Shown piece by piece: positions 56,416-60,231 of a DNA stretch of 64,000 nucleotides. The translations under genes and the position numbers were made by a program. The notes beneath the pieces were generated by a model. The model searched no databases. It was not told the origin of the DNA and saw nothing but the letters and a program-made list of their open reading frames with translations. The DNA comes from Petropleomorpha daqingensis (lineage in GTDB: Bacteria; Actinomycetota; Actinomycetes; Mycobacteriales; Geodermatophilaceae), in the NCBI RefSeq assembly GCF_013408985.1, contig NZ_JACBZT010000001.1, positions 2,914,001 through 2,978,000 on the forward strand, read 5' to 3'. Position 1 is the first letter of the stretch. Each line of letters opens with the position of its first letter.

Positions 56416-56788
56416 GGGGGTGAATGGTCTCGACTGCGGTCGTTTGGCCAGGGGAAGCGAGCCGAGGAAGGCAACGATGAGCTCGTTAACCACGCGTTGC
56501 AAACAACACAAGCGCCGACTCCAGTCAGCGCGAGTTCGAACTCGCTGCCTAAGTAGCTAGTTCGACTCTGTCAGCCCGGGTTCGTCACCGGCCCGGATCC
56601 TGGCATCAGCTAGGTGACTGACCCTCCGCACCGGTCGCGGGTGCTGGAGGGGACATCAAACAGCGACTGGGCCCGTCACACCGGCTAGTCCGTGCGATCG
56701 GTGGGGCCGAGCAGAGACACAGCGGACTGCGCTCGGAGAAGCCCTGGACTGGCGTCGTAGGACGCGGGTTCGATTCCCGCCACCTCCA
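56416..56788 (+). ncRNA. ssrA: transfer-messenger RNA (tmRNA)
   Basis: The 5' end GGGGGTGAATGGTCTCGACT and the 3' end GGGTTCGATTCCCGCCACC are the conserved tmRNA termini. GGGGGTG (56416-56422) pairs with CACCTCC (56781-56787) as the acceptor stem, and A56788 is the discriminator. The tag reading frame runs from GCA at 56499 to TAA at 56550-56552 and encodes ANNTSADSSQREFELAA. The bases after the discriminator read CCC, so the CCA tail is not fully encoded. With SmpB it rescues stalled ribosomes. A -10-like TACCCT lies just upstream. Confidence 0.95.
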
Positions 56789-56800
56789 CCCCGAACGAAG

Positions 56801-58198: not shown

Positions 58199-58717
58199 TC
58201 AGCCGCCGGTCACCGCGGCCAGCACCGCCGGGTAGGCGGCACGGGCCAGGTGCCGCAGCTCGTCGTCCGTGCGGTCCTGGATCGGGTGCGGCACGAGGAC
58301 GTGCGGAACCGCCATACCCAGCGCAGCCGACTGCGCGACGGCGGCGTCCGCGAACTCCGCGGAGGCCAGGAAGACCCCCACGACGCCTCGGCCCTCGAGG
58401 TCTGCGATGTCGTGCACACTGCACGACGTGCAGGAGCCCTAATCGGCCAGGGCTTCGATGACCACCTCGCAGTGGGTGGCGATCTCGTGCCGCAGGTCCA
58501 CCGGTGCCGGCCGGGCGAAGGTGGGCTTGCGGTACCGGACGGTCCGCACGCCGTCGGCGGCGAGCAGCCGTTCCAGCTCGTCGATCAGCACGTCGCCGCG
58601 GCTCTTGGAGATGTCGAGCAGCCCGACCGTGCGGCCGTCCAGCGAGGGGGGCCGCGGGTTCACCTGCCGCGCCGCCGGCCGGCGCTCCGAGGTCGGGTCG
58701 ATCAGGACGCGGGCCAT
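58199..58717 (-). CDS. UGSC-family selenoprotein with UAG at the selenocysteine codon
   Basis: One frame of 173 codons from the ATG at 58717 to the TGA at 58199-58201, broken only by TAG at 58439-58441 (codon 93). Around it the protein reads EALAD-(TAG)-GSCTSCSVHDI, the conserved UGSC motif of this family with Sec at the first place. The N-terminal half (VLIDPTSERRPAARQ, VGLLDISKSRGDVLIDELE) and the C-terminal half (LEGRGVVGVFLASAEFADAA) are both intact and uniform in codon use, which argues against a decaying gene. UAG-directed selenocysteine is reported for Geodermatophilus and Blastococcus. Function of UGSC proteins is unknown; a redox role is likely. It overlaps the upstream thioredoxin-domain gene by 16 bases. 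Confidence 0.85.
58409..58427 (-). promoter_or_regulatory. bSECIS-like hairpin downstream of the UAG codon
   Basis: On the minus strand GTCGTGCA pairs perfectly with TGCACGAC around GTG, starting 11 bases after the TAG. The 8-bp stem, small GU-containing loop and 11-base distance are what a bacterial SECIS needs to recruit SelB. An overlapping alternative, CTGCAC/GTGCAG, starts five bases after the codon. Confidence 0.65.
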
Positions 58718-60147
58718 GCGGCCTCCTCGATCGGGACGGTGACCGGCGAGCTGCCGGTGGCGCCGCTGGCCCAGCCGCCGACGACGGCCGAGAACATGCC
58801 GGCCGGGCCGCCGGCGTAGGCCACCAGCAGGCCGCCGGTGCGGAATTTCGGCAGCGGACGGTCGTCGAGCCCCGGAGGCATGCCCTCGGCGATGCCCAGC
58901 GACCCGCGGCGCAGCTCGTCGGGCTGCATCACCAGCAGCGGCTCGAGCTCGGCGAGCAGGCGGGCGCGGTCCCAGCCGCCCTCGCGGAACACCCGGCCGT
59001 GCTCGGGGCTGACGATCAGCAGCGCGTCCATGCCCAGCGCCGATTTGGGGTGACCGACCGTGCGCAGCACGAGCGCGTAGGTGCGGGCCAGCGACTCCGG
59101 TGTCCGGCTGGCCTGGTCCGTGACCGGGATCAGCCCCGACCCCGCGAACACGGTGACCGCCGATCCCGGGACCCCGCGGGAGGCGGCGAGCGGCTCGAAC
59201 GGAGACAGCTCGTCCTCGGCCTCGGCGAAGCAGAACGTGAACTTGCCGGGGCTGCCCAGCGTCGCCCGGTCCACCTCGCCGGGCCGGCCGCCGCCGACGT
59301 TGCGCACCACCAGCTGCAGCGCCCGGCCGATCGTGGCGTTGGCCCGGTTGCCCTGGCCGAGGGCGTTGATGCCGGAGTTCATCCGCAGCCGCCGGGTGAC
59401 CGGACCGTTGACGACCAGCACCGGCCCGGCGAAGTACGTCGTCGCGAGCACCCCGTGCAGGGCGAACTCATCGCGGCAGGCGGCCTCGACCGCGGCCAGC
59501 ACCACCGGCAGGTGCTCGGGCAGGCACCCGGCGAGGACGGCGTTGACCGCCACCTTCTCGACGGTGCACTCGACCAGGTCGGGTGGGACGACGGCGACCA
59601 CCTCGTCCGGCGCGCGGGAGGTGCCGGCAAGCATCCGCACCACCCGCTCCTCGGTGGGCGTGACGGTGGGCAACCCGTCGGTCCAGCCGCGGTCGTACAT
59701 CGCCTCGACGTCGTCCTCGAGGTCGGCGAGCTCCACCTGCCGGCTGGCGAGGACGCGGCCGCCGTAGCGGCGGGCGAGCTCCTCCTCGACGCCCCACTCG
59801 ACGCTGCGCGACCCGCACCCTGGCCGGTGCTCGGGCAGCCCGTCACCGAGCCCGCGGACGCCGGTGAACTCCTCCCACTGCGACCGCAGCCAGCCGACGA
59901 CCCGCCCGGTCTCCACGCCGTCCTCGACCCGGAGCAGCGTGGGCACCGTCTCGACGCCCAGCCGCCAGCTGGTCTCCAGCTCGCGGTCGTCGACGACCGG
60001 CAGCCCGTCCGGGAAGGCGGGGTCGTCCTGGCTGTAGACGGTGAGCGGGACGGCGGCGGCGAGCTGCCCCAGCACCGGCTCGACGAGCGTGCAGGTGGGG
60101 CAGTCGCGCTTGACGACCGCCACCAGGCCGTCCGGCACCGTCGCCAC
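58702..60147 (-). CDS. thioredoxin-like domain protein, partner of UGSC selenoprotein
   Basis: About 481 residues. The N-terminal 90 residues are a thioredoxin-like fold with the redox motif KRDCPTC and cis-Pro region VETVPTLLRV. The remaining 380 residues form a large domain (YDRGWTDGLPTVTPTEERVV, then NSGINALGQGNRANATIGRA) that travels with UGSC genes. The operon overlap suggests that the two proteins work together, perhaps with the CPTC pair reducing the selenenyl group. The GTG at 60147 is chosen; a GTG at 60165 is also possible. Confidence 0.78.
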   Translation of the reverse strand: MATVPDGLVAVVKRDCPTCTLVEPVLGQLAAAVPLTVYSQDDPAFPDGLPVVDDRELETSWRLGVETVPTLLRVEDGVETGRVVGWLRSQWEEFTGVRGLGDGLPEHRPGCGSRSVEWGVEEELARRYGGRVLASRQVELADLEDDVEAMYDRGWTDGLPTVTPTEERVVRMLAGTSRAPDEVVAVVPPDLVECTVEKVAVNAVLAGCLPEHLPVVLAAVEAACRDEFALHGVLATTYFAGPVLVVNGPVTRRLRMNSGINALGQGNRANATIGRALQLVVRNVGGGRPGEVDRATLGSPGKFTFCFAEAEDELSPFEPLAASRGVPGSAVTVFAGSGLIPVTDQASRTPESLARTYALVLRTVGHPKSALGMDALLIVSPEHGRVFREGGWDRARLLAELEPLLVMQPDELRRGSLGIAEGMPPGLDDRPLPKFRTGGLLVAYAGGPAGMFSAVVGGWASGATGSSPVTVPIEEAAWPAS

Positions 60148-60231
60148 CCGGTCACCATGACACACGCGTCAACCGGCCCGCCCCCCGCGGACGGTCGCGC
60201 ACGCCCGAGCGGGATGGCGCACGATGCGTCC

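Follow-up and report, generated by a model that had tools for sequence, protein, structure and literature searches.

UAG as the predicted selenocysteine codon of a UGSC-family selenoprotein gene in Petropleomorpha daqingensis

A gene of Petropleomorpha daqingensis that carries an in-frame TAG is almost certainly a genuine gene of the UGSC selenoprotein family, in which selenocysteine (Sec) is encoded by UAG rather than UGA, as judged from comparative sequence evidence. The gene is located in a window of 64,000 nucleotides, by which the whole stretch of DNA analysed is meant, and this window lies within a single 5.38-Mb contig of a genome that is 99.93% complete. Recoding of this type is already known, since UAG-Sec in the UGSC proteins of Geodermatophilaceae has been published. 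The occurrence of a tRNA-Sec with the anticodon CUA in this family was reported in 2017 (PMC5330540), where UAG-Sec in formate dehydrogenase (FDH) and UGSC-motif proteins is credited to Mukai et al. 2016 (Angew Chem, doi 10.1002/anie.201511657) and AhpC is added to the UAG selenoproteins of the family. The original prediction had pointed to reports of a UAG-decoding tRNA-Sec in Geodermatophilus and Blastococcus, which agrees with that publication, and the present gene is a further example of the kind published in 2016-2017 from the same bacterial family. In a non-exhaustive literature search, no description was found of the 104-genome breadth, the genera retaining UGA, the covariation of the hairpin or the genome with two anticodons, all of which are presented below.

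The features of the window on which the analysis is based are as follows.

58199..58717, minus strand: UGSC-family selenoprotein gene of 172 residues with Sec at residue 93, matching NF041046 and PF24696
58439..58441, minus strand: in-frame TAG at codon 93, the predicted Sec codon of the UGSC motif TAG-Gly-Ser-Cys, supported by aligned relatives
58409..58427, minus strand: SECIS-like hairpin GUCGUGCA-GUG-UGCACGAC, with near-invariant silent sites and compensatory changes, absent in the Cys paralogues
58702..60165, minus strand: upstream operon partner of 487 aa, with an N-terminal thioredoxin-like domain bearing a CPTC motif, plus a conserved domain of unknown function

The UGSC gene and its in-frame TAG

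The reading frame begins with ATG at 58717-58715 and is closed by an ordinary TGA stop at 58201-58199, and the TAG at 58441-58439, which stands in the context ...EALAD-TAG-GSCTSC..., is its sole internal stop. With the TAG counted as one residue, the protein scored 143.9 bits against NF041046 (NCBIfam, UGSC family (seleno)protein; curated cut-off 125; residues 27-169) and 144.3 bits against Pfam PF24696 (cut-off 25; residues 5-170), and the family profile match covers both flanks of the TAG. Membership in the NF041046 family follows from the score over the cut-off together with the X-Gly-Ser-Cys motif at residue 93. The U-G-S-C motif, the single Sec and a score above the cut-off are shared with the known UGSC selenoprotein family (PMC2398784; NF041046; PF24696), from which the gene differs in its Sec codon, TAG in place of the TGA of the family.

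When related UGSC genes were aligned at codon 93, TAG was found to be kept in dozens of relatives (38 genes), while others have TGA (64) or, in the case of Cys paralogues, TGC (8), a tally in which some genomes present in both collections are counted twice; none of these genes contains a further in-frame stop. The recurrence of TAG at this position in 38 related genes whose frames are otherwise open shows that it is neither a chance event nor a sequencing slip. The family scores and the alignment thus bear out the earlier claim of a single TAG at the Sec position of an otherwise open UGSC frame, to which the minus strand, absent from that claim, can be added.

Selenocysteine machinery and a second UAG selenoprotein

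A search of the genome with RF01852 revealed one clear tRNA-Sec at G000:C1:3440656-3440747 (66.9 bits), which is of full length and possesses a long variable arm in the end-to-end alignment by Infernal; the weaker matches examined are tRNA-Ser and tRNA-Leu. Its anticodon is CUA, and ARAGORN also reads cta but labels the gene as tRNA-Pyl. In the sel locus, selD is placed divergently just upstream of this tRNA gene, with selA and selB downstream, and all three exceed their cut-offs (selA, TIGR00474, 413 bits; selB, TIGR00475, 294.8 bits; selD, TIGR00476, 387.7 bits). Hence the CUA tRNA-Sec, selA, selB and selD that had been expected elsewhere in the genome were all found, on the same chromosome as the UGSC gene, and selB and the CUA tRNA-Sec, whose absence had been named as fatal to the original prediction, are both part of the sel locus.

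In-frame UAG had also been anticipated in other selenoproteins, and the FDH alpha gene of the same genome (G000:C1:2140574; TIGR01553 region G000:C1:2141183-2143186 plus an upstream part) does carry TAG at its Sec site, in the context NQARI-TAG-HSSTVPG. As a probe for FDH, TIGR01553 worked, whereas TIGR01591 proved poor for the Sec-FDH of the family, most of its matches lying below the cut-off and containing no stop. A search of the source genome for an AhpC selenoprotein with TAG gave a negative result, as none of the eight AhpC-TSA matches contains a stop. As far as the Geodermatophilaceae system is described in PMC5330540 and attributed there to Mukai et al. 2016, it shares with the source genome the CUA tRNA-Sec and the UAG in FDH and UGSC proteins, and nothing essential differs, apart from the TAG-containing AhpC of Blastococcus saxobsidens, which was not found here. 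Likewise, the canonical bacterial UGA-Sec system (SelA, SelB, SelC, SelD and SECIS) is built from the same genes, with a hairpin shortly after the Sec codon, and the differences are confined to the anticodon CUA and the codon UAG.

A conserved SECIS-like hairpin

The hairpin comprises eight base pairs and a 3-nt loop, starts 12 nt past the TAG and places the loop G at +20. Across 102 main-clade UGSC genes, in which TAG and TGA genes were pooled, codons +4 to +8 (Thr, Ser, Cys, Ser, Val) are each represented by one codon wherever the residue is kept, unlike codons +2, +3 and +12 to +18, which are variable in the same genes. At +7, Ser is without exception encoded by AGT, which accounts for 0 of the 90 Ser codons sampled from six long genes of the source genome. 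Moreover, UGSC paralogues with other residues at the stem keep the hairpin through paired changes (UA->GC, GC->CG and CG->GC): both-side changes were counted in 21 cells versus 3.8 expected from shuffles, the covariation amounted to 0.258 versus 0.072 in shuffles, and 93.8% of the cells were paired. Sliding the register destroyed the signal, every slid register being worse, and the Cys paralogues form just 3 to 5 of the eight pairs. Under a synonymous-codon null applied to the source-genome gene alone, all eight pairs arose in 1.6% of the draws.

The folding energy just after the Sec codon, compared with synonymous shuffles, gave a mean z of about -1.0 for TAG genes and -1.1 for TGA genes, an excess of stability that is not specific to this position, since equal or larger shifts occur in other segments of the TAG genes; codon conservation and covariation were therefore used to assess the hairpin. 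Its conservation, along with an architecture typical of bacterial SECIS elements, suggests that the hairpin would act as one. TAG genes share their hairpin sequence with the TGA-coded homologues, which indicates that only the codon and the anticodon have changed.

Proposed decoding and alternative readings

The bacterial Sec pathway, consisting of SelA, SelB, SelD and the SECIS, is well established, and we infer that it also operates on the UGSC gene. SelA would make Sec-tRNA on the CUA-anticodon tRNA-Sec with selenophosphate provided by SelD, and SelB would bind this Sec-tRNA as well as the hairpin located 12 nt beyond the UAG. This dual binding would direct Sec to the UAG of the UGSC gene and restrict its delivery to that codon, in competition with release factor 1 (RF1). 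The codon, the matching tRNA, selA, selB and selD, the second TAG selenoprotein, the conserved hairpin and the lineage-wide agreement of codon and anticodon are seen in the sequences, whereas the insertion of Sec at this codon, the action of the hairpin as SECIS, the competition with RF1 and the enzymatic role are predictions drawn from them.

Among 46 confidently called ORFs, a rough sample from the window and two other stretches, the stops are TGA in 37, TAG in 6 and TAA in 3, and UAG elsewhere in the genome appears to be still an ordinary stop, so that Sec recoding must be local. It may be speculated that the move of Sec from the dominant to a rare stop might lessen the conflict with release factors. 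Since UAG is used as a stop, RF1 must compete with the Sec tRNA, and it is conceivable that the UAG of the UGSC gene serves mostly as a stop or is passed by near-cognate readthrough, resulting in a regulated short form with Sec inserted rarely. We regard this as very unlikely, in view of the dedicated CUA tRNA and the SECIS-like hairpin, and of the invariant residues of the UGSC family, which are spread over both halves of the protein on either side of the UAG; the short form, moreover, would be devoid of the catalytic motif, because that motif sits at the UAG.

Even smaller is the probability that the gene is dead or normally UGA-coded, the TAG being a nonsense mutation or a misread TGA. TAG and TGA are indeed only one or two changes apart, and automatic annotation would judge the gene as broken; against this, the same TAG is present in dozens of genomes of several genera, the frame is otherwise open with the family sequence conserved, and the FDH codon and the tRNA anticodon have changed in step with the UGSC codon. 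Decoding of UAG as pyrrolysine, for which the tRNA-Pyl label given by ARAGORN would speak, is just as improbable, given that the RNA matches the tRNA-Sec family from end to end (66.9 bits) and has the long variable arm, that its gene adjoins selA and selB with selD divergent, and that codon 93 of related genes is TGA (Sec) or TGC (Cys).

UAG-encoded Sec, the reading that we favour, offers a clean natural case of a code change made in step by a tRNA anticodon and two kinds of selenoprotein genes around an unchanged SECIS-like hairpin, which suggests that what defines a Sec site is SelB together with the SECIS, not UGA as such. There is also a practical side, in that annotation breaks up or misses UAG-Sec genes, and ARAGORN mislabels the CUA tRNA-Sec as tRNA-Pyl.

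Distribution of codon and anticodon

Throughout 115 Geodermatophilaceae genomes, a UGSC match has at most a single in-frame stop, and that stop is always TAG, never TGA or TAA. A sequence-pattern search detected the CUA tRNA-Sec in 104 of these 115 genomes, and TAG occupies the Sec site in 19 of the 20 FDH loci inspected in the family. The remaining locus, in genome G081, had been flagged for a TGA as a possible UGA-Sec codon and was rejected, because this TGA lies at the edge of a deletion and frameshift removing the Sec region. The FDH concerned (L183, G081:C12) seems to have lost that region by the deletion and frameshift, and its genome retains a CUA tRNA-Sec.

Among 80 UGSC loci found in the genome_contigs collection by similarity to the window protein, TAG is present in all those named Geodermatophilus or Blastococcus and TGA in all others. 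The nearest homologues, 85-86% identical, come from records labelled Geodermatophilus amargosae and Geodermatophilus obscurus, and the family assigned to this DNA in the original prediction was right, every named nearest relative with TAG being a Geodermatophilus or a Blastococcus. Within Geodermatophilaceae, several UGSC paralogue clades have TAG (L200-L218) and others have Cys (L039-L046).

Three further genera of the family, g6, g7 and g8, which are represented by incomplete, MAG-only genomes, gave UCA in 7 of the 7 tRNA-Sec genes read, and two g8 FDH genes (L185 and L186; MAGs G073 and G075) have TGA at the Sec site. In 399 sampled genomes of the order, the CUA tRNA-Sec is confined to Geodermatophilaceae, save for one small contig of G233, a genome of another family. 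This exception was rejected, as the 4.8-kb contig is homologous to and collinear with the sel loci of Geodermatophilaceae, and it is probably a binning contaminant. The simplest reading of these sequence comparisons is that the switch from UGA to UAG occurred inside Geodermatophilaceae, and the three genera in which UGA has seemingly been retained provide a handle on its timing.

Genomes with two tRNA-Sec genes

Geodermatophilus sp. LHW52908 (G060) contains, besides its resident CUA tRNA-Sec, a second, divergent tRNA-Sec with the anticodon UCA (L181:1169-1263, G060:C17; 81.8 bits). The contig of the latter has a GC content of 0.70, versus 0.78 around the resident locus, and harbors transposase/integrase genes; tRNAs that are 82-83% identical to this UCA tRNA-Sec are found on plasmids of Tsukamurella and Arthrobacter. 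Only one SelB of the genome scores over the cut-off. A tentative and rather doubtful reading is that, with the UCA tRNA-Sec of a mobile-element-like contig, the resident CUA tRNA-Sec and a single SelB, UAG and UGA might both mean Sec in one cell, and more generally that Sec moved once in the family from UGA, the commonest stop, to the rare stop UAG, some genera keeping the earlier state. In a genome of genus g11 (G110:C255), two CUA tRNA-Sec genes (L192:7089-7184 and L193:6045-6140) are located about 59 kb apart, both accompanied by a separate selB that scores over the cut-off.

Protein fold and operon partner

An AlphaFold2 model of the UGSC protein, computed with 26 relatives, reached a pLDDT of 90.7 and a pTM of 0.86, and shows five strands alternating with helices; Sec lies where the helix following strand 3 begins. 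Structural comparison matched the model best to flavodoxin-like and receiver-like folds, with moderate scores (best Z 11.4, 132 aligned, rmsd 3.3), and a sequence search of the PDB with this protein gave no match. The modelled flavodoxin-like fold differs from the thioredoxin-like fold suggested for the UGSC family in PMC2398784. Such fold matches reveal little about function; the protein is probably a redox enzyme, with the Sec-Gly-Ser-Cys pair predicted at the beginning of the helix that follows strand 3 of a flavodoxin-like fold.

The partner gene at 60165-58702 shares 16 bases with the start of the UGSC gene, and the two are neighbours in 74 of the 80 relatives taken from genome_contigs. 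Its intactness and its CPTC thioredoxin domain, both stated in the original prediction, were corroborated, the latter by a thioredoxin-like fold match of the N-terminus, where the CxTC motif is invariant (C22, T24, C25) and reads CPTC in the window gene; the remainder is poorly modelled (pLDDT 71.7). As a guess from the neighbourhood, the thioredoxin-like partner is a plausible reductant of the Sec protein. The neighbours of some UGSC paralogues resemble the C-terminal part of the partner. A tmRNA gene with the tag peptide ADSSQREFELAA is situated at 56416-56790, about 1.4 kb from the UGSC gene.
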